This document shows positions 18,456 through 29,664 of a stretch of DNA of 47,092 nucleotides, one piece after another. The stretch is from a virus, in IMG/VR virus record IMGVR_UViG_3300035085_000013, positions 1 through 47,092 of that record; one strand, given 5' to 3'. Both the position numbers and the translations under genes were made by a program. Numbering within the stretch: the stretch's first letter is position 1; every line of letters begins with the position of its first letter. The notes under the pieces were generated by a model. The model was not told where the DNA came from. It ran no database searches and worked only from the letters and a program-made list of their open reading frames with translations.

Positions 18456-18893
18456 ATGAAAGAGATGGAAATCACCGCCAAGATCGGCACCGACGGCAAG
18501 CCTGCTTCGGTCAAGCGCGAGCTCGGCGAGAACCTCGATGAGCTGGTCAGCCAGTTCGGCCACGACGTGATCTATGCGCACGCCAAGAGCTCGATCGTCG
18601 TCGCCGCGCAGGGCAAGATCAGGACCCTGATCGACCCCGAGCGTGAAGGTGGCCCGCTGGAGGGTGATGCTCTCCAGGAGGAGATGAACAAGTGGACGCC
18701 GGGCATTAGGAAGCCGGGTAAGTCCGCGGCCGAGAAGGTCAAGGAGCACTTCGGCAAGATGGACCCGGAACTCCGGCGGCAGCTTCTCGCGGAGCTGGCA
18801 AGCGAGGGCGGGGAGGCGGACGAGGCCGAGAATGCCGTCGAGGAGGAGCAGGAGCAGGCTCCGCAGCCGGCGCGTGGTGGGCGTCGCCGCTAG
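18456..18893 (+). CDS. Conserved-type early protein, 145 aa (paralogue of 8935-9342)
   Basis: MKEMEITAKIGTDGKP start, ENLDELVSQFGHDVIYAHAKSS, a WTPGIRKPGKSA segment, MDPELRRQLLAELAS, an acidic stretch and an Arg-rich end (ARGGRRR). The same order of motifs occurs in the gene at 8935, so the two are probably duplicates or members of one family. Both have G/C-rich third positions and a hairpin straight after the stop. Cassette GGAGAAAGATC lies at 18440-18450. Function unknown; a nucleic-acid-associated abundant protein is a guess. Confidence 0.8.
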   Translation: MKEMEITAKIGTDGKPASVKRELGENLDELVSQFGHDVIYAHAKSSIVVAAQGKIRTLIDPEREGGPLEGDALQEEMNKWTPGIRKPGKSAAEKVKEHFGKMDPELRRQLLAELASEGGEADEAENAVEEEQEQAPQPARGGRRR

Positions 18894-19043: not shown

Positions 19044-19376
19044 ATGCCGAACGGTGGAAGGCCGAAGGTCTTCATTGCCAATCGCGGTTCTCACGACTAC
19101 CGCCCGGCTGAAAAATTCGGCGATCTTGTTTTCGTCACAGACGGTGAAATAAATAAGTTTGCCATCGGAGAGCTGTTCCGCCGCGCCCAAGAGGTGATGA
19201 AACACAGCACGGAGGAGGACTTCTTCCTCCCCACAAGCCTCCCCATTTTGTCAGGTATTTGCAGCGCCCTCCTTGCTTATAAGCACGGGAGGGTTCGTTA
19301 TCTCTTATTTAAGTACAGCCACGGAAAGAAGGCTGGCGAGTATATCGAGAGGACCATCTATCTGGGGGACCAATGA
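19044..19376 (+). CDS. Hypothetical early protein, 110 aa
   Basis: First gene after the strong promoter, with cassette GGAGAAAGATA. Begins MPNGGRPKVFIANRGSHDYRPAEKFGDLVFVTDGEINKF, a pattern shared by small phage proteins of unknown role. Mixed alpha/beta, with a C-terminal strand pair. Confidence 0.75.
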   Translation: MPNGGRPKVFIANRGSHDYRPAEKFGDLVFVTDGEINKFAIGELFRRAQEVMKHSTEEDFFLPTSLPILSGICSALLAYKHGRVRYLLFKYSHGKKAGEYIERTIYLGDQ

Positions 19377-19597
19377 CTTCTGCTGAAAGAGAGCTGCTTG
19401 TCTGCGCGCTCGCGCTGCACAAGATATGGCGAAATCAGGAGGGCTTTGAAGTAGCAAAGCCTATCATCGAAAACTTCAAGCGAGCGGCTACGCTCGTAGA
19501 GAATGAAAACGAGGAGGTTGCACAGAACAAGCTCCCCGAGGCATGGAGTGGCGAGGACCCAGCCAAGGCGATGCGGCGTATCGAGCAAGGTGAGTGA
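19373..19597 (+). CDS. Hypothetical early protein, 74 aa
   Basis: ATGA-coupled to the previous gene and TGATG-coupled to the exonuclease. Helical (MTSAERELLVCALALHKIWR...). Function unknown. Confidence 0.65.
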   Translation: MTSAERELLVCALALHKIWRNQEGFEVAKPIIENFKRAATLVENENEEVAQNKLPEAWSGEDPAKAMRRIEQGE

Positions 19598-20196: not shown

Positions 20197-20342
20197 ACAT
20201 CATCATCCTTGTCATCTTGATCCTCCTCCTGCTTGGTGGGCTCCCGACCTGGGGATATCACCACTATGGATGGGGTCCCAGCGGTGGGGTGGGGCTCATT
20301 CTGGTGGTGGTTATCATCCTTCTCCTGATGGGGAGGCTCTGA
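20193..20342 (+). CDS. DUF3309-type small membrane protein
   Basis: 49 residues: a hydrophobic helix MNIIILVILILLLLGGLPTW, a polar turn GYHHYGWGPSGG, and a second hydrophobic helix ending LLLMGRL. This is the exact architecture of DUF3309, a ~50-residue membrane protein otherwise common in proteobacterial chromosomes. ATGA overlap with the exonuclease and TGATG overlap with the GH16-like gene show co-translation. It was probably captured from a host. Function not known. Confidence 0.85.
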   Translation: MNIIILVILILLLLGGLPTWGYHHYGWGPSGGVGLILVVVIILLLMGRL

Positions 20343-21190
20343 TGCCCATATACCCTGTCAAGTTCGCCGTGAATGCGGATGGCTCCCTGACGGGATCGGT
20401 CGAGATCGAGGATCAGGTCCCCGTTCCGCCAGTGCCGAGCCTGCCCATCCCAATCGCCGGCAGTGGGATGAAGCTGGCGAAGGATTGGAGCTTCGGCACC
20501 GACAAGGGGACGATCAAGACCAGGGAACAGCTTCTCAAGGAGTTCTTCGATCACCTCTGGTGGTATGGGTCCACGATCCCGCAGAACCTCGAGCTGACAG
20601 CGGACAGCCTGATCTTATGGCTGACCAAGCAGAGCGGCATCACGCACGCTTCGACGATCGCCAGCAAGTGGACGGAGACGACGGGGACTGTGTTCATTGA
20701 AGTCCTGGCGCGCTGCGAAGCCGCGCAAGGAAGCTGGCCTGGGATTTGGCTCTACCCGAATATGCCGGATATCCAGAGCGGCTCCAACGGAGGGGAGGCG
20801 CAAACCAACGAAATCGACATAATGGAGAAGTTCGACAACGGAGGGCAGGCGCCAAATGGTGGATCTGATCCCTTCTATGGACCCAATCGCGCGAAGGCGA
20901 CGGTCCTCTGGGGAAATCACCAGACGCGCTGGCAGCAGGTAGTTCCGGTTGATACAACCCAGTGGCATAAATATGCCGTCTTAAAGAAGGGCAACTCTCT
21001 GGAATTCTTCTACGATGACAAGTCGATCGGGAAGACGGGAATGAGCTGGACCGATGCGCCCCCGATGCTCGTTCTCGATCACTGGTGTCTCGCCAAAGAC
21101 GACCAAGGCGGTGGAGCGATTGGCGGCCCAGGCCTTGCGGATGGCAAGCGCGTGGCGTTTGAAGTCGCCTATGCCAGGGCCTATCAGTGA
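20342..21190 (+). CDS. GH16-like concanavalin-fold protein
   Basis: 282 residues from ATG 20342. The GH16 signature ExDxxE is present as NEIDIMEKF (E157, D159, E162), preceded by SWPGIWLYP (132-139) and followed by a WHKYAVLKKGNSLEFFYDD strand set and a C-terminal VAFEVAYARAYQ. GH16 enzymes cut beta-glucans and related polysaccharides. No signal peptide. In phages this would suit a capsule or exopolysaccharide depolymerase, but it is in the early block and not with tail genes. G/C-rich third positions set it apart from neighbours. Confidence 0.75.
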   Translation: MPIYPVKFAVNADGSLTGSVEIEDQVPVPPVPSLPIPIAGSGMKLAKDWSFGTDKGTIKTREQLLKEFFDHLWWYGSTIPQNLELTADSLILWLTKQSGITHASTIASKWTETTGTVFIEVLARCEAAQGSWPGIWLYPNMPDIQSGSNGGEAQTNEIDIMEKFDNGGQAPNGGSDPFYGPNRAKATVLWGNHQTRWQQVVPVDTTQWHKYAVLKKGNSLEFFYDDKSIGKTGMSWTDAPPMLVLDHWCLAKDDQGGGAIGGPGLADGKRVAFEVAYARAYQ

Positions 21191-21390: not shown

Positions 21391-21615
21391 ATGCCAGATC
21401 GTTTCGAGAAGATTACAGATGTTCTCGAGTTCCTCAAACAGCAATCAGGGAGAAAAAAGATTGACCCAGCTGAACAGCTGATCTTGGATACCATAGTAGA
21501 GGAGTATGTCCTAGTGACCGACTCCCTTCTGAGGATCGCTGATGCGCTGGAGCAGATTGCTCATACTCACGAAGTTCAAATGAGCAATATAGAGATAAAT
21601 ACTCGACACAAATAG
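21391..21615 (+). CDS. Hypothetical helical protein, 74 aa
   Basis: Behind AGGAGAAACAG. Helical (ITDVLEFLKQQSGRKK..., LILDTIVEEYVLVTDSLLRIADALEQI) with heptad-like leucines. Function unknown. Confidence 0.65.
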   Translation: MPDRFEKITDVLEFLKQQSGRKKIDPAEQLILDTIVEEYVLVTDSLLRIADALEQIAHTHEVQMSNIEINTRHK

Positions 21616-21626
21616 GAGAAAGATCA

Positions 21627-22694
21627 ATGACAGCCGCAGTTAACAAAGATACCATGACCTTGACGCGCGAGGCCATGCTCGCGTTCACCCGCTACTGGGA
21701 GGCAAATGCAACCAACGCAGAATTGATGGAGGTCGAAAGTGGCGGAAAGCCTGAATTCAGAAACGCTCAGACAGCTACAGAGATGGTGTTTAATTACATC
21801 GAGGAGAGAAGACACACGCTTTGCCGTTCGGACTTTGAGTTACTCGATATTGAAAGACCATTTGCAGTTCCCCTGGATCCAGAAAACCCCAGCCTCATCT
21901 ATATTGGAAGATGGGATAAGATATTCAGATATCAAGGTCGAATCTATATTGGTGAGCACAAGACCACTTCTCTTTACAAGAGGGAAGGGCCATTTCAGAA
22001 TTCGTTCGTAGATTCTTTCAGCCCGAATAGCCAGATTGATGGCTATCTTTATGCGGGAATGATGGAGTATGGAAAGTCCCTCAAGGCCGTATGGATTGAT
22101 GCGGCTCTGGTTCACCGCGACGTCCACGACGGCTTTCGCTTCATTCCGGTCGAACGGCAATTTGCCCAAATCGAGACATGGCTATGGGAGACTACTTATT
22201 GGATTAACCAGATCGAGGCAAATAAATCAGTCTATGCAACCCTGGCTAATATCCCTGCTTCAGAAAGAGGAAAGCTCGAGTACCTGCCAGCTTTCGCAAA
22301 AAATACCGTATCCTGCACTCAGTATGGCGGGTGCCCTTATCTTGATTTGTGTAAGATGTGGGCAAACCCAGACCGTCATCCGACGCCTTTGGGTTTCGTC
22401 GAGGAGAAATGGGCGCCCGTTGATGAATTGAAGATAGCCAAAAGCAAGCCGGCTATGATTGGGCATAACAAGGGACCGGCGCTTGATCTGAGGGAGGAAA
22501 ATGATAGGCTTTATGACAACACTCGCACGTCGGAGTTTAGGACCTGCCCGAGGAAGTTCTATTATCGCCATATCAGAGATTGGCGCCCTGGAGAGGATCG
22601 CCGCCCACTACTGTTTGGTGGCGCCTGGCACGCTGCGATGGATGTTGTTTGGGAAATCCTCTGCGATCGGAAGAATAGGAGTATTTCCAAATGA
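21627..22694 (+). CDS. PD-(D/E)XK nuclease with permuted domain order
   Basis: 355 residues, RecB/AddB-type exonuclease fold. The active site is GRWDKIF (D97) and GEHKTT (E110-x-K112), then SQIDGYLY (Q136) and the Fe-S-type cysteines C230, C236 and C242. In this family a CPRKFYY cysteine and a GxxxH motif normally come first. Here CPRKFYYRH (C307) and LLFGGAWHAAMD come last, after a mid-protein MIGHNKGPALD that looks like an original N-terminus. The whole therefore reads as a circular permutation. Cassette GGAGAAAGATC precedes ATG. The end is ATGA-coupled to the dCMP deaminase. Confidence 0.85.
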   Translation: MTAAVNKDTMTLTREAMLAFTRYWEANATNAELMEVESGGKPEFRNAQTATEMVFNYIEERRHTLCRSDFELLDIERPFAVPLDPENPSLIYIGRWDKIFRYQGRIYIGEHKTTSLYKREGPFQNSFVDSFSPNSQIDGYLYAGMMEYGKSLKAVWIDAALVHRDVHDGFRFIPVERQFAQIETWLWETTYWINQIEANKSVYATLANIPASERGKLEYLPAFAKNTVSCTQYGGCPYLDLCKMWANPDRHPTPLGFVEEKWAPVDELKIAKSKPAMIGHNKGPALDLREENDRLYDNTRTSEFRTCPRKFYYRHIRDWRPGEDRRPLLFGGAWHAAMDVVWEILCDRKNRSISK

Positions 22695-23158: not shown

Positions 23159-24016
23159 ATGCCTAACACCAAAGACCTGAACGAAGACACTCAGCTTCGG
23201 TTCCTCCTTTGTGGGTATCCAGGCAGCGGGAAGACAACACAGGCGCTGACCCTCCCAGGGAGGAAGTTCGCCTACGTGTTTGATCCTAACGCTCTTCAAT
23301 CGCTGCGCGGAGCTGATATTGACTATGAGATCTTTTTGCCCGACATTGCAGATATTGATATGTCGGCAAAGACGTTGAAGGCCAATATCGGGGATAAGCC
23401 AACAAGAAAAAAAGAACCCCTGACTTATGTAAACTGGGAGAAGGATTTCGACGATCGGTATGAGAGTGGTTTCTTTGATGATTACGACTGGATCATATTT
23501 GACAGTTTTACGAATTTTCTCGATATTATCATGGATCGCATTCTATATCTTAACGGTCGCTTGGGCAAGCAGCCTGAGCAGGCGGACTGGGCAGCGCAGG
23601 TCAACACCTGTTCTAATGTATGGCGCGCACTTGCTGCTTTGGATATCGGTATACTTGCAACTGCTCATCTTGATCTTAAGCAGAATGATGTGAGCAAGAG
23701 GATTTTCCATCACATCTACATAACAGGCAAGCTCCGTATTCGCATCCCTCAATTGTTCAACAATGTCTGGGTCTGCCACGGCGACTCTGATGATAAGGGA
23801 AGATTTTGGCAATTTCAAACGGCACCTGATAAAGAGTATCCGGTGGTCAGGAGCCAGTGGAACACAAAGGTTTTTGAAGGCGCAACTATTGAGGACTTCA
23901 ACAGGCCCGAGGACTTCGGTCTAGGTGCTCTGATGAAGCGGTTCGGCTACTCCGGATTGTCGAGCCGTAGAACGGTGGGCGATCTTCGCCCTGTTGCAAC
24001 AGCTAAGAGGAAATGA
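23159..24016 (+). CDS. RecA-like phage ATPase (Sak4/AAA_24 type)
   Basis: 285 residues. Walker A GYPGSGKTT (19-27) and Walker B DWIIFDS (110-116), later ALAALDIGILATAHLD. This fits the AAA_24/Sak4 family, single-strand annealing or recombination ATPases that work with a phage ssDNA-binding protein. Here the DUF669-like gene follows within 5 nt. The C-terminal tail is basic. Confidence 0.85.
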   Translation: MPNTKDLNEDTQLRFLLCGYPGSGKTTQALTLPGRKFAYVFDPNALQSLRGADIDYEIFLPDIADIDMSAKTLKANIGDKPTRKKEPLTYVNWEKDFDDRYESGFFDDYDWIIFDSFTNFLDIIMDRILYLNGRLGKQPEQADWAAQVNTCSNVWRALAALDIGILATAHLDLKQNDVSKRIFHHIYITGKLRIRIPQLFNNVWVCHGDSDDKGRFWQFQTAPDKEYPVVRSQWNTKVFEGATIEDFNRPEDFGLGALMKRFGYSGLSSRRTVGDLRPVATAKRK

Positions 24017-24020
24017 ACAG

Positions 24021-24506
24021 ATGCCTTTCATCGAACAGGCAGTCGCAGACGCGACAGAAGACGAACTCGTACCCGAGGGCGAGTACGATCTACGGATCGT
24101 GCATCACGAGACCAAGGAGAACAAGGCCGGGACGGGGGAGCTGATCCAGGTCCAAATCGAGATCACCAATCCCCCCGATGGGATCAAGTCGCCGGCGCCA
24201 ATCTTCCACTATCTGAGCCTTGCCGGCCCGAACGACGAGCCGAAGAGCAAGAGCTTCAAGCTCAGGATGCAACGGCGCTTCCTCGAGTGCTTCAGCATCC
24301 CGTTCGAGGGCAACGGGTTCAATGACGACGACTTCGACGGCGCCACCGGGCGGTGTCTGGTGACACAGCAGGAGATCATTCGCAACGAGCAGCCGACGGG
24401 CGAGTACAATCATGCCCTCAGGCTGCCGAAGTTCCGCAACGAGCCCAACGACGGCGCTGGGGACGAGCCGGTTCAGCAGACGCGTACCGGACGTCGCCGG
24501 CGCTGA
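24021..24506 (+). CDS. DUF669-like single-stranded DNA-binding protein
   Basis: 161 residues from ATG 24021. LVPEGEYDLRIVHHETKENKAGTGELIQVQIEI is the typical DUF669 opening, then FHYLSL, FKLRMQRRFLECF and GRCLVTQQEI. The tail is Arg-rich (RTGRRRR). Such proteins coat ssDNA during phage recombination and pair with Sak4-type ATPases, which is the gene upstream. Its strong G/C third-position bias suggests high expression, as expected for a stoichiometric DNA binder. Confidence 0.82.
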   Translation: MPFIEQAVADATEDELVPEGEYDLRIVHHETKENKAGTGELIQVQIEITNPPDGIKSPAPIFHYLSLAGPNDEPKSKSFKLRMQRRFLECFSIPFEGNGFNDDDFDGATGRCLVTQQEIIRNEQPTGEYNHALRLPKFRNEPNDGAGDEPVQQTRTGRRRR

Positions 24507-26382: not shown

Positions 26383-26585
26383 AAGTCTATAGGCACTTCA
26401 AAAATGGAAAGCTCTATACCATTGAAGGGAGGTGCATTCGCGAAAGCGATATGGAGCCTATGGTTCTATATTGCGATAGTACAAGGCATCCGATATGGGT
26501 TAGGCCGGAAAGAGAATTCTTTTCAGATGTCGAAGTAGCTGGAATACAGATGCCTCGTTTCCAAGAGGTAAATAAGAATGGCTAA
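26379..26585 (+). CDS. DUF1653 protein
   Basis: 68 residues: YRHFKNGKLYTIEGRCIRES, MEPMVLYCDSTRHPIWVRP, FFSDVEV...MPRF. It matches DUF1653, a small beta-barrel-like family of unknown function found in bacteria and phages. ATGA-coupled to the methyltransferase and overlapping the polymerase start by 8 nt. Confidence 0.85.
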   Translation: MKVYRHFKNGKLYTIEGRCIRESDMEPMVLYCDSTRHPIWVRPEREFFSDVEVAGIQMPRFQEVNKNG

Positions 26586-28209
26586 CAGCCCTTGGGAAGA
26601 AGGCACCCCCAACAGGAAAATCTGCATCCTAGCAGAAGCGCCCGCACGCAACGAAATCCGTATGAACCAGCCGCTGGTTGGCCTCAGCGGGATGTTGTTC
26701 AATGACTGCTTGCACGCCGCTAACATTGTGCGCGCGGAATGCTATATATTGAACGTCTTCCCTTATGAGGTCTTCAAAGACAAAACAGACAGCAAGATAT
26801 TTAATAGAGAAGGTGATATGCTATGGAGCAGCAGAACAGGATTTACCGCGTTTGGATTAGAAGAGGCAAAGCCAACACTGAAGAGGTTAGAAAAGAGCCA
26901 GGCCAACGTAATTGTCCCGCTTGGCGGCGTCGCGCTGTCTTTGTTATTTGGAGATTCCCGAATAATGAAGTGGCGTGGTTCCATACTGGAGAGCAAGCGC
27001 CTTCCGGGGAGGAAGTTAGTTCCTACGTTGCACCCAGCTTTTTCTTTACGCGGAAACTACACAGCAAGATATACCATACAAGCGGACCTCAAGAGGGTAA
27101 GGGAAGAAAGCAGCACAAGGCAAATCCTATTGCCAAAGCGAGAACTGATAATTGATCCACAGTTTAATGAAGTAATCGCCTTTTTGAATGATATGACGCG
27201 CGCGAGGCGCGTAGCCACTGATATTGAAATCCTCAATCATCAAATAAGCTGCCTTTCATTTGCACCTCGAGCTGATCTCTCGATGTGCATTCCGATGCTT
27301 GACGAAGGCAACAGACATCGCTGGACAGAAGAGCAGGAGGCACAGATCTGGCTTTTGATTGCAAAGGTGATGGGCGATGAGAAGATCGAAAAGATTAACC
27401 AGAATATCTTATTCGATGTGGCTTTTGAGTTTGAGCAGAATAGCGTTTTTACGCGTGGCACCACACACTGTACTATGTGTCTTCAGCATATTCTTTATCC
27501 AGATTTTCCCAAGGGGCTCGACTACATTTGCTCAATCAGAACTCGAGAGCCTTATTATAAGGACGACGGAAAGATATGGCAGAAGCCTTGGATTGACCTT
27601 GACAGATTTTGGACCTATAACGCGAAAGATAGTGCGGTGGCCCTCGAGGCGTTTGACGACGCATACACTGAAATCGAAGGTTATGAGTGGACATACGAGA
27701 GGACTCTGGCACTTTTCAGACCCCTGATGTTTATGATGATTAAGGGGATTAAAGTCGATCGGGTTCGATTAAAAAAGACTAATGAAGAGATAAAGAAGAA
27801 GATCGCCGAAACTGAGAAAACCCTGCGCGAGACTGCGGAATGGGACTTCAATCCAGGCAGCCCTAAACAGTGCCAGGAGTACTTCTATGTTACAAAAGGT
27901 ATTAAGCCGTATGTCTCTTCCAAAACGGGGTCTATCACCTGTGACGACAAGGCTATGGCTCGTATCTACAAAAGATATCAGCTACCTGAGGCTAAACTTG
28001 TCCAGGAGATCAGATCGTTACGGAAATTACATTCCTCCTATCTCGAAGTCGGGATCGACTCCGACGATCGGATCAGGTGCTCTTATAATCCCCGTGGGAC
28101 CTCGACGGGCAGGCTTTCCAGTTCGGAAACTGTTCGTGGCACGGGGATGAACCTCCAAAGTCTCCACGCAGAATTCAAAGACTTCTTGGTGGCGGATGAC
28201 GATGACTAG
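26578..28209 (+). CDS. DNA polymerase I-type, N-terminal part: UDG-like + 3'-5' exonuclease + thumb
   Basis: 543 residues. (1) Uracil-DNA-glycosylase-like domain, 1-180: ILAEAPARNE, LNVFPY, LVPTLHPAFSLR. (2) DEDDy exonuclease, about 205-365: TDIEI (D215/E217), NQNILFD (N276/D280), YNAKD (Y347/D351). (3) Family-A thumb and start of palm: FNPGSPKQ (424-431), LRKLHSSYL and TSTGRLSS (508-515). It stops at LVADDDD, just before motif A. All nucleotidyl-transfer residues are in the separate gene at 28762. The UDG part keeps the usual motifs but lacks the family-4 Fe-S cysteine pattern. Confidence 0.93.
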   Translation: MANSPWEEGTPNRKICILAEAPARNEIRMNQPLVGLSGMLFNDCLHAANIVRAECYILNVFPYEVFKDKTDSKIFNREGDMLWSSRTGFTAFGLEEAKPTLKRLEKSQANVIVPLGGVALSLLFGDSRIMKWRGSILESKRLPGRKLVPTLHPAFSLRGNYTARYTIQADLKRVREESSTRQILLPKRELIIDPQFNEVIAFLNDMTRARRVATDIEILNHQISCLSFAPRADLSMCIPMLDEGNRHRWTEEQEAQIWLLIAKVMGDEKIEKINQNILFDVAFEFEQNSVFTRGTTHCTMCLQHILYPDFPKGLDYICSIRTREPYYKDDGKIWQKPWIDLDRFWTYNAKDSAVALEAFDDAYTEIEGYEWTYERTLALFRPLMFMMIKGIKVDRVRLKKTNEEIKKKIAETEKTLRETAEWDFNPGSPKQCQEYFYVTKGIKPYVSSKTGSITCDDKAMARIYKRYQLPEAKLVQEIRSLRKLHSSYLEVGIDSDDRIRCSYNPRGTSTGRLSSSETVRGTGMNLQSLHAEFKDFLVADDDD

Positions 28210-28582
28210 TTGGACCCGGAAGCGTTTTGAATGGGTTCCTAATTCAGTCCCAACTAGGTGCACTCCATTAGTGCGATTGATTTATGCTTTGATGATGAAA
28301 CGCTTTGTGACATATGGAGAGCTTTGCGAAGAGTCAGGTGTGGGAATGGAAACAGTTGCTAGGCGCTGGCGCACACGCGGCGCTGCATCTGTCCCAAATC
28401 TCGAGGCCGTGTTGAACACGCTGGGATATAAGCTCGCAGCGGTTCCTATGAAAGAGCCTCTTGATGAACTAGGAAGGGTCAAACGCATCTGCCATGAGCC
28501 GCTTCCTCTGAAGGGGAAAGGAAGAGGAAACTGGCGATCATCGAAGAAGTATCAGCAACTCCAGGAGACGACAAATGGCTAA
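28196..28582 (+). CDS. HTH protein encoded inside the split polymerase, 128 aa
   Basis: ATG at 28196 (or 28202) lies within the last codons of the polymerase N-part. Residues about 28-75 (RLIYALMMKRFVTYGELCEESGVGMETVARRWRTRGAASVPNLEAVLNTLGY) look like an XRE-type helix-turn-helix; the tail is basic. It may regulate the replication operon. Its 3' end overlaps the next gene by 8 nt, so this is a chain of coupled genes and not a passively inserted block. Confidence 0.75.
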   Translation: MTMTSWTRKRFEWVPNSVPTRCTPLVRLIYALMMKRFVTYGELCEESGVGMETVARRWRTRGAASVPNLEAVLNTLGYKLAAVPMKEPLDELGRVKRICHEPLPLKGKGRGNWRSSKKYQQLQETTNG

Positions 28583-28769
28583 GGATATCGTGCGCGTGCT
28601 GCGTGTATTGGAGTATGTTGGTCCACGGAGATGGGTGGCAGAAACTCTGGCTAGAAATAGTGTAAAGGGGACAAAGATCATCTCAGAAGATTGCTTTATC
28701 TCTGAAGCCGTCATCGGAGATTATCCGGAAATCCTGAAGGTCAAGGAAGAGGAGCCAAAGAGTGACTGA
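28575..28769 (+). CDS. Small protein between polymerase halves, 64 aa
   Basis: Starts MAKDIVRVLRVLEYVGPRRWVAETLARN then GDYPEIL. This resembles a small phage protein with the VRVLRV-EYxGPREWVE...L...V-G pattern, often near polymerase genes; role unknown. AGGAG precedes ATG. It overlaps the GTG of the polymerase C-part by 8 nt. Confidence 0.75.
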   Translation: MAKDIVRVLRVLEYVGPRRWVAETLARNSVKGTKIISEDCFISEAVIGDYPEILKVKEEEPKSD

Positions 28770-29664
28770 GAAGGTCCTCCTAGAGCTCGACAAGGCCGGC
28801 GCGGAGTGGTTCATCGTCGGTTATATGGCAGGCGATGAAAGGATGATAGATGTTCACAGAACTGGAAAGAGCCCACATGTTGAAACTGGCAAATTACTTA
28901 CAGGCGCTAGCGAAGAGCTTATCCTCAGAGAACACAAACTCTTGGGAGCTATTACAGACCCTGTTATTATTGAGGAGGTGCGAAGAGAGCATCTGCCGGA
29001 ATTCTACAGTGATAATCTCCTCTTCAGACCTCGCATCTTTACAATCAGGCAATGCGCCAAAAAGTCCAACCACGGGCTAAACTACATTATGGGCGCCCGG
29101 CGCTTTTCCGAAGAGACCGAGATGGAGGAAAGAGACTGTAAAAAGATCATTGAACTATACACCAGAAAGGCGTATCCTAATATACCTTTGTGGTGGGAAT
29201 CTGTTAAACGCGAGTTGAAGAATAACAACCGAACGCTGGTTAATTGCTTCGGAAGAAAAAGACGTTTCATGGAGGCCTGGGGGGACGAACTCTTCAAACA
29301 GGCCGTAGCATTTCTTCCACAATCCACTAACGTGGATGCAGTCAATGAGGGAATGATTGCAACTTATAATGATGAATGGCTTATGTCATTTATGGATCTT
29401 CTCGCGCAGACGCACGACTCTATTACTCTCCAAGCGGATATTCGGGACTGGAAAAAGGTGGCGCGTGGTTGCGTTAAAATCGCTGAATACCTCTCGCCAG
29501 AAATGGAATATGGAGGCCGCAAATTCAAACTTGGCACCGAACTCAAGATGGGGTTGTCATGGGGATCTATGGAAGAAGTCAAAATCTCAAATGACATTGA
29601 TAAGTTTGCAAAAGACCTTCGATCCACCTACGAAGGCTTGAGAAATGGCAAAAAGGCGGCTTAA
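28762..29664 (+). CDS. DNA polymerase I-type, C-terminal catalytic part
   Basis: 300 residues from GTG 28762 behind GAGGAGCCAAAGA. It holds motif A (LLELDKAGAEW, D10), the O-helix motif B (R96-x3-K100...HGLNYIMG, with His at the usual Phe762 position and Tyr108), NCFGRKRRF, QSTNVDAVNEGMI and motif C (QTHDSI, D219). It has no exonuclease or thumb of its own, so it must act with the 26578-28209 product. It is in the same frame as that gene, but stop codons lie between them. It overlaps the ATPase gene by 20 nt. Confidence 0.93.
   Translation: MTEKVLLELDKAGAEWFIVGYMAGDERMIDVHRTGKSPHVETGKLLTGASEELILREHKLLGAITDPVIIEEVRREHLPEFYSDNLLFRPRIFTIRQCAKKSNHGLNYIMGARRFSEETEMEERDCKKIIELYTRKAYPNIPLWWESVKRELKNNNRTLVNCFGRKRRFMEAWGDELFKQAVAFLPQSTNVDAVNEGMIATYNDEWLMSFMDLLAQTHDSITLQADIRDWKKVARGCVKIAEYLSPEMEYGGRKFKLGTELKMGLSWGSMEEVKISNDIDKFAKDLRSTYEGLRNGKKAA

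Follow-up and report, generated by a model that had tools for sequence, protein, structure and literature searches.

In AddB and Cas4, four cysteines form a cluster referred to as a "staple", and AddB- and Cas4-type exonucleases have a known or proposed function in the resection of DNA ends, as described in the consulted parts of two papers (PMC3466216, PMC4176176). Circularly permuted forms of other DNA enzymes, such as methyltransferases and type I S subunits, are well known (PMC7824862, PMC3874165, in part), and natural permutations have been described for phage and bacterial DNA methyltransferases (PMC7824862, PMC3320104, in part). A permuted nuclease of the RecB/AddB/Cas4 type was not found in the literature searched, the coverage of which was partial, so that reports outside it are possible.

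The window analyzed here is an IMG/VR virus record of 47,092 bases from an uncultivated phage. It contains an ORF of 355 amino acids with an ATG start, read in one continuous frame, which we conclude is a true and probably functional circular permutation of a nuclease. The original prediction had placed this ORF at exactly the coordinates confirmed here, and had interpreted it as a PD-(D/E)XK nuclease in permuted order. The ORF, its leader and its parts are as follows.

21627..22694, plus strand: ORF of the permuted PD-(D/E)XK nuclease, 355 aa, in the order C-part, linker, N-part
21614..21624, plus strand: AGGAGAAAGAT, the leader of this gene, which recurs in the phage
21627..22445, plus strand: former C-terminal part (C-part), residues 1–273, family model 61–322
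within 21627..22445, plus strand: C-part residues D97, E110-x-K112, Q136, C230, C236, C242 and W262
22446..22493, plus strand: linker, residues 274–289, connecting the native C- and N-termini; includes MIGHNKGPALD; low pLDDT, predicted to be flexible
22494..22667, plus strand: former N-terminal part (N-part), residues 290–347, family model 3–60
within 22494..22667, plus strand: N-part residues D297-N298, C307 and G331..W334-H335..W342
22668..22694, plus strand: tail of eight residues and stop codon; AGGAG at 22677–22681 serves the next gene

Comparison with ordinary relatives confirmed that each half has a homologue and that the order of the halves is reversed. In a BLASTP alignment with P0007, the nuclease encoded by contig IMGVR_UViG_3300027828_000093, window residues 6–272 matched residues 70–325 (40% identity, 191 bits) and residues 285–352 matched residues 4–72 (48% identity, 75 bits). 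A profile HMM of length 329, built from 49 ordinary-order relatives with the window protein excluded, gave the same result: residues 6–273 matched model positions 61–322 (320.5 bits) and residues 290–347 matched positions 3–60 (84.0 bits). The two blocks meet at model position 60/61 in inverted order, with neither a gap nor an overlap. An inverted two-block match of this kind is far beyond chance. Both parts are homologous to one ordinary protein, are swapped and tile it within a single open frame. Thus, the permutation was borne out by both comparisons, including the alignment of each half to unpermuted homologues that had been suggested as a check.

The chain is broken after the G-x-x-W-H-x-x-M-D-x-x-W helix, in the loop that leads to the following helix and that differs in length among the relatives. 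At the joint, the native C-terminal tail W262-A-P264-VDELKIAKSKPA continues into MIGHNKGPALDLREEN, which is followed by the native D-N-T-R start. The Pfam model PF12705 matched the protein with 34.5 bits (cut-off 22) in two stretches, of which the best covers residues 299–343 and model positions 5–50, such that the start of the model lies at the end of the protein. The match to the exonuclease family phrog_1218 (E 1.6e-13) was divided in the same manner. The linear order of motifs in the PF12705 family, with the N-part before the C-part, is not present in the window protein. Since the order is inverted, we consider the protein a permuted homologue rather than an ordinary PF12705-type member. 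The original prediction had also considered a second intact nuclease of which the last residues might be a dead fragment, but the PF12705 search of the window returned this gene alone.

The order of the two halves was examined in relatives, as had been proposed. Using tblastn, the ordinary order was observed at 84 of 88 loci in one set and at 83 of 87 in a second, with one half undetected at the remaining four loci of each. Among 167 loci, 155 showed both halves in one ORF in the ordinary order, ten had one half undetected (E 0.1), two contained an internal stop or were located at an edge, and none was permuted; all of these locus counts include different stretches of the same contig. Matching of 81 non-redundant relatives to the family HMM resulted in 75 single-domain matches and six multi-domain matches in the ordinary order, with no inverted case, and the N-part was upstream of the C-part in all ten whole records. 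Thus, every relative that could be read has the ordinary order. No close relative was found: the best matches are about 54% identical in the C-part and 63% in the N-part, in searches that may not include records very near the window.

We also searched for other permutants with a DNA pattern for the permuted junction, which recovers the window itself and covers linkers of approximately 26–36 residues and relatives with the W-H and D-N motifs. The pattern matched eight stretches in the viral collection, none of which was a permuted relative. Two of these, L178 and L183, are ordinary-order relatives in which the C-part follows the matched N-part and the upstream match had arisen by chance, and in the other six a nuclease half was absent at E 0.01. 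The bacterial and archaeal genomes yielded two loci, neither of them permuted, and the plasmids yielded zero matches. The searches, which may not cover records close to the window, did not reveal a near-identical second assembly. The permuted order is so far known from one contig.

One ordinary-order relative (L076:1052-2794, IMGVR_UViG_3300033482_000074) is interrupted by an intein that carries an HNH endonuclease (PF14890, E 1.3e-14; PF13392, E 2e-7). As read from the translation, the intein is located at the first member of the C-terminal triad of cluster cysteines, so that a staple would be possible only after splicing.

Structure prediction was based on an alignment in which 49 rows covered the C-part and 12 the N-part; the window protein was included in 20 copies, which were needed for the aligner to place the rows correctly. 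Among five models, the best had a pLDDT of 84.9 and a pTM of 0.83. The former N-part was mostly predicted with a mean pLDDT per ten residues of 80–96 (residues 291–350), with only 12 alignment rows, whereas the joint (residues 272–284) was below 50 and is modelled as a flexible tether. These values argue against a C-terminal segment of 80 residues that is unpacked from the core, the outcome that had been named as contradicting a permuted fold. A prediction from the single sequence was useless (pLDDT 32.5).

P0007 had zero sequence matches to solved structures at E 1. An aligner that keeps the chain order placed model residues 4..245 on residues 75..272 of MaACE1, a member of the Cas4 family (Z 8.8, rmsd 3.9, 189 aligned), and residues 2..251 on residues 843..1139 of AddB (Z 8.5, rmsd 4.8, 204 aligned). 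The matches to AdnA, MaACE1 and AddB all covered about residues 2–251, with Z values of 8.0–9.3. No match was obtained for residues 285–355; a swapped N-part is out of reach for an aligner of this type, and the missing match speaks neither for nor against the permutation. A structural match over about residues 2–251 is what the model of a permutant should give.

In a library of viral structures, the top match was A0A6J5NSY1 (343 aa), far ahead of the following matches by E-value, with 398 alignment columns and a TM score of 0.58–0.59. Since the alignment to a target in the ordinary order should stop near model residue 275, this protein is perhaps permuted as well. We consider it only a lead to what may be a second permuted nuclease. 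It is doubtful, in our judgement, that phages possess a separate class of permuted iron-staple nucleases, maintained by selection and represented here by the window protein, in which opening of the chain at the W-H helix would make two new ends available for a partner, such as Sak4, and turn the staple into a compact local cluster.

All residues named in the original prediction were recovered at the expected positions by inspection of the codons (D97, E110, K112, Q136, C230, C236, C242, C307 and H335). D97, K112 and Q136 were identical in 49 of 49 aligned relatives, and E110 corresponded to E in 46 and to D in three. The cysteines C230, C236 and C242 were conserved in 49 of 49 relatives and C307 in 48 of 48, which gives the four conserved cysteines of an iron staple, one in the N-part and three in the C-part. 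It is plausible that an Fe-S cluster is rebuilt from these cysteines in permuted order; nuclease activity and Fe-S binding are what we infer for the protein. With every element of its active site and probable iron-sulphur clamp still in place, the gene looks like a natural permutation of a working enzyme.

It is unlikely that the permutation did occur but that the gene has since lost its function and is dead or dying. The absence of a near relative with the same order leaves long maintenance unproven, and the C-part has a long branch (0.65), albeit one that does not exceed all the others. However, the reading frame is open over 355 amino acids, signals for translation are present and the predicted fold is confident. 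Near-invariant columns (at least 95% conserved) are kept at 29 of 30 positions in the C-part and at 11 of 11 in the N-part, which is comparable to intact relatives and inside their range; a proline that is nearly invariant in the family is replaced by alanine (A47) in the window protein. Decay has at least spared every motif of the permuted nuclease.

The gene is part of a module for which the relatives display a conserved row: gene A, gene B, the nuclease, sometimes a dCMP deaminase, Sak4 and DUF669. The neighbours in the window, and examples of the leader, are as follows.

18456..18893, plus strand: upstream gene A of the conserved module
19044..19376, plus strand: upstream gene B (Pam3_gp32-like, PF23992), which adjoins the nuclease on its 5' side in some relatives, e.g. 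L012
22691..23140, plus strand: dCMP deaminase (PF00383), directly downstream, likewise in L090 and L092
23159..24016, plus strand: Sak4-like ssDNA annealing ATPase (phrog_124, PF13479), a conserved partner
23994..24506, plus strand: DUF669 / single-strand-binding-like protein, a conserved partner
11928, 12353, 13447, 14351, 18439 and 21614, plus strand: examples of the leader RGGAGAAAGAT

The order of nuclease, deaminase and Sak4 is the same in the window as in L090 and L092. Five ORFs are located between gene B and the nuclease in the window, and these two genes overlap in L012. The leader RGGAGAAAGAT was found 19 times in the window with at most one mismatch, as compared to 2.5 expected matches, and the leaders checked before 18456, 19044 and 21627 were each located just upstream of a start codon. 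Thus, the permuted gene starts with the standard ribosome-binding leader of the phage at the usual spacing. Its stop codon overlaps the start codon of the dCMP deaminase (ATGA), and the AGGAG of the deaminase is located inside the tail of the nuclease ORF. No Rfam family was identified in the window.

Other features of the region were observed. A weak match to a GH16-like protein (PF00722, E 9.7e-4, below the cut-off) is located at 20270–21190, inside the replication region. Two separate ORFs, 26578–28209 and 28762–29664, together encode the family A DNA polymerase, and the first of them is fused to a uracil-DNA-glycosylase-like domain (PF03167); a small gene without a Pfam match (28196–28582) is located between them. 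In L005, the match to the first polymerase ORF is likewise spread over two ORFs, and the gene after the nuclease (L005:3612-3920) is acyl carrier protein-like as judged by eye from the translation.

An assembly artefact would require that the real gene is ordinary and that three misjoins have occurred, before the C-part, between the parts and after the N-part, which we regard as very unlikely. The order is seen in a single IMG/VR contig, and the junction pattern revealed no second contig with this junction in the viral collection. Against an artefact, the first join carries the standard leader at its usual spacing, the middle join is in frame and free of stops, and the last is embedded in the overlap with the next gene and its AGGAG. 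The third-position GC contents of the two parts are similar (0.53 and 0.59). The longest exact repeats at the joins in the window are 14, 12 and 11 bases, the 14-mer being the common leader, so that repeats of a length that could confuse an assembler are not apparent.

MIGHNKGPALD was suggested in the original prediction to resemble an original protein start. It is indeed located between the two blocks, where the N-termini of relatives begin, and may once have been a protein start; its methionine (Met277), however, is not preceded by a ribosome-binding sequence. This position is also what would favour an enzyme in two pieces, with the N-part made additionally from Met277 and complementing the C-part in trans. 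We consider this highly improbable, since the ribosome-binding sequence is lacking, the frame is continuous and the halves were recognized in separate ORFs at none of the 167 loci (ten with one half undetected, two with a stop or an edge). A chance fusion of parts from two different nucleases is hardly credible: the trees of the two halves differ, but the pieces are exactly complementary (model 61–322 and 3–60) and both are near L142, L090, L144, L140, L141, L151, L095 and L094 in trees of low support. Taken together, the lack of a second copy, the native signals, the short repeats, the kept columns and the shared nearest relatives make both a misassembly and a two-gene fusion unlikely.

We consider it likely that the protein is a natural circular permutant of a phage iron-staple nuclease of the RecB/AddB/Cas4 type. 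Ordinary members of the family begin with a cysteine and the G-x-x-W-H helix, continue with D, E-x-K and Q, and end with three cysteines, the four cysteines pinning both chain ends together through the metal cluster. Because the ends adjoin, a short flexible tether (about residues 265–293) can join them and the chain can open elsewhere, in this case in the variable-length loop that follows the W-H helix. The product would fold to the same enzyme, with a cluster from C230, C236, C242 and C307, now close in sequence, and may act as a single-stranded DNA exonuclease that trims DNA ends in the Sak4/DUF669 recombination module. Trimming of DNA ends for Sak4-type annealing is the role that the neighbourhood and the family make most probable.

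As for the origin, a tandem duplication whose outer halves were later lost seems most likely. The simplest route would be a duplication in place, after which the leading N-part and the trailing C-part disappeared, since the slot before the deaminase and Sak4 is kept and the native ends are joined in frame. Neither a duplicated intermediate nor a relative with separate halves was recognized among the 167 loci, and HMMs specific for each half detected nothing else above noise in the six frames of the window. A candidate remnant of the N-part just after gene B (19377–19451) was attributed to chance (E 1.8; 18 aligned residues). Direct repeats near the permuted gene are short ones alone, and a 14-mer before both gene A and the permuted gene, considered as a trace of recombination, is the common leader of the phage.

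In the current view, the iron staple keeps the two chain ends of these nucleases together, and a natural permutant offers a test of whether the cluster is still required when a covalent link already connects them. The permutant further indicates a natural position at which the enzyme could be split for engineering, and shows internal rearrangement of a phage recombination gene with every motif retained. Annotation with ordinary profiles can halve such proteins: phrog_1218 and PF12705 (PDDEXK_1; RecB, AddB, Cas4-like) match the window protein, but in two stretches. Permuted DNA methyltransferases have another fold and recur in several clades, whereas the permuted nuclease is a single case so far. 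The phage nucleases of the W-H subfamily (L142, L090, L144, L141 and P0007/L005) are 40–49% identical to the window protein in the C-part and 48–59% in the N-part, and share with it the active-site residues, the cysteines and the operon with Sak4 and DUF669. In all those that could be read, the N-part precedes the C-part, whereas this order is reversed in the window protein. AddB, Cas4 and Dna2 share with it the N-part cysteine, the three C-part cysteines and the D, E-x-K and Q residues; their staple cysteines are located at opposite ends of the domain, whereas those of the window protein lie within 78 residues, three followed by one.
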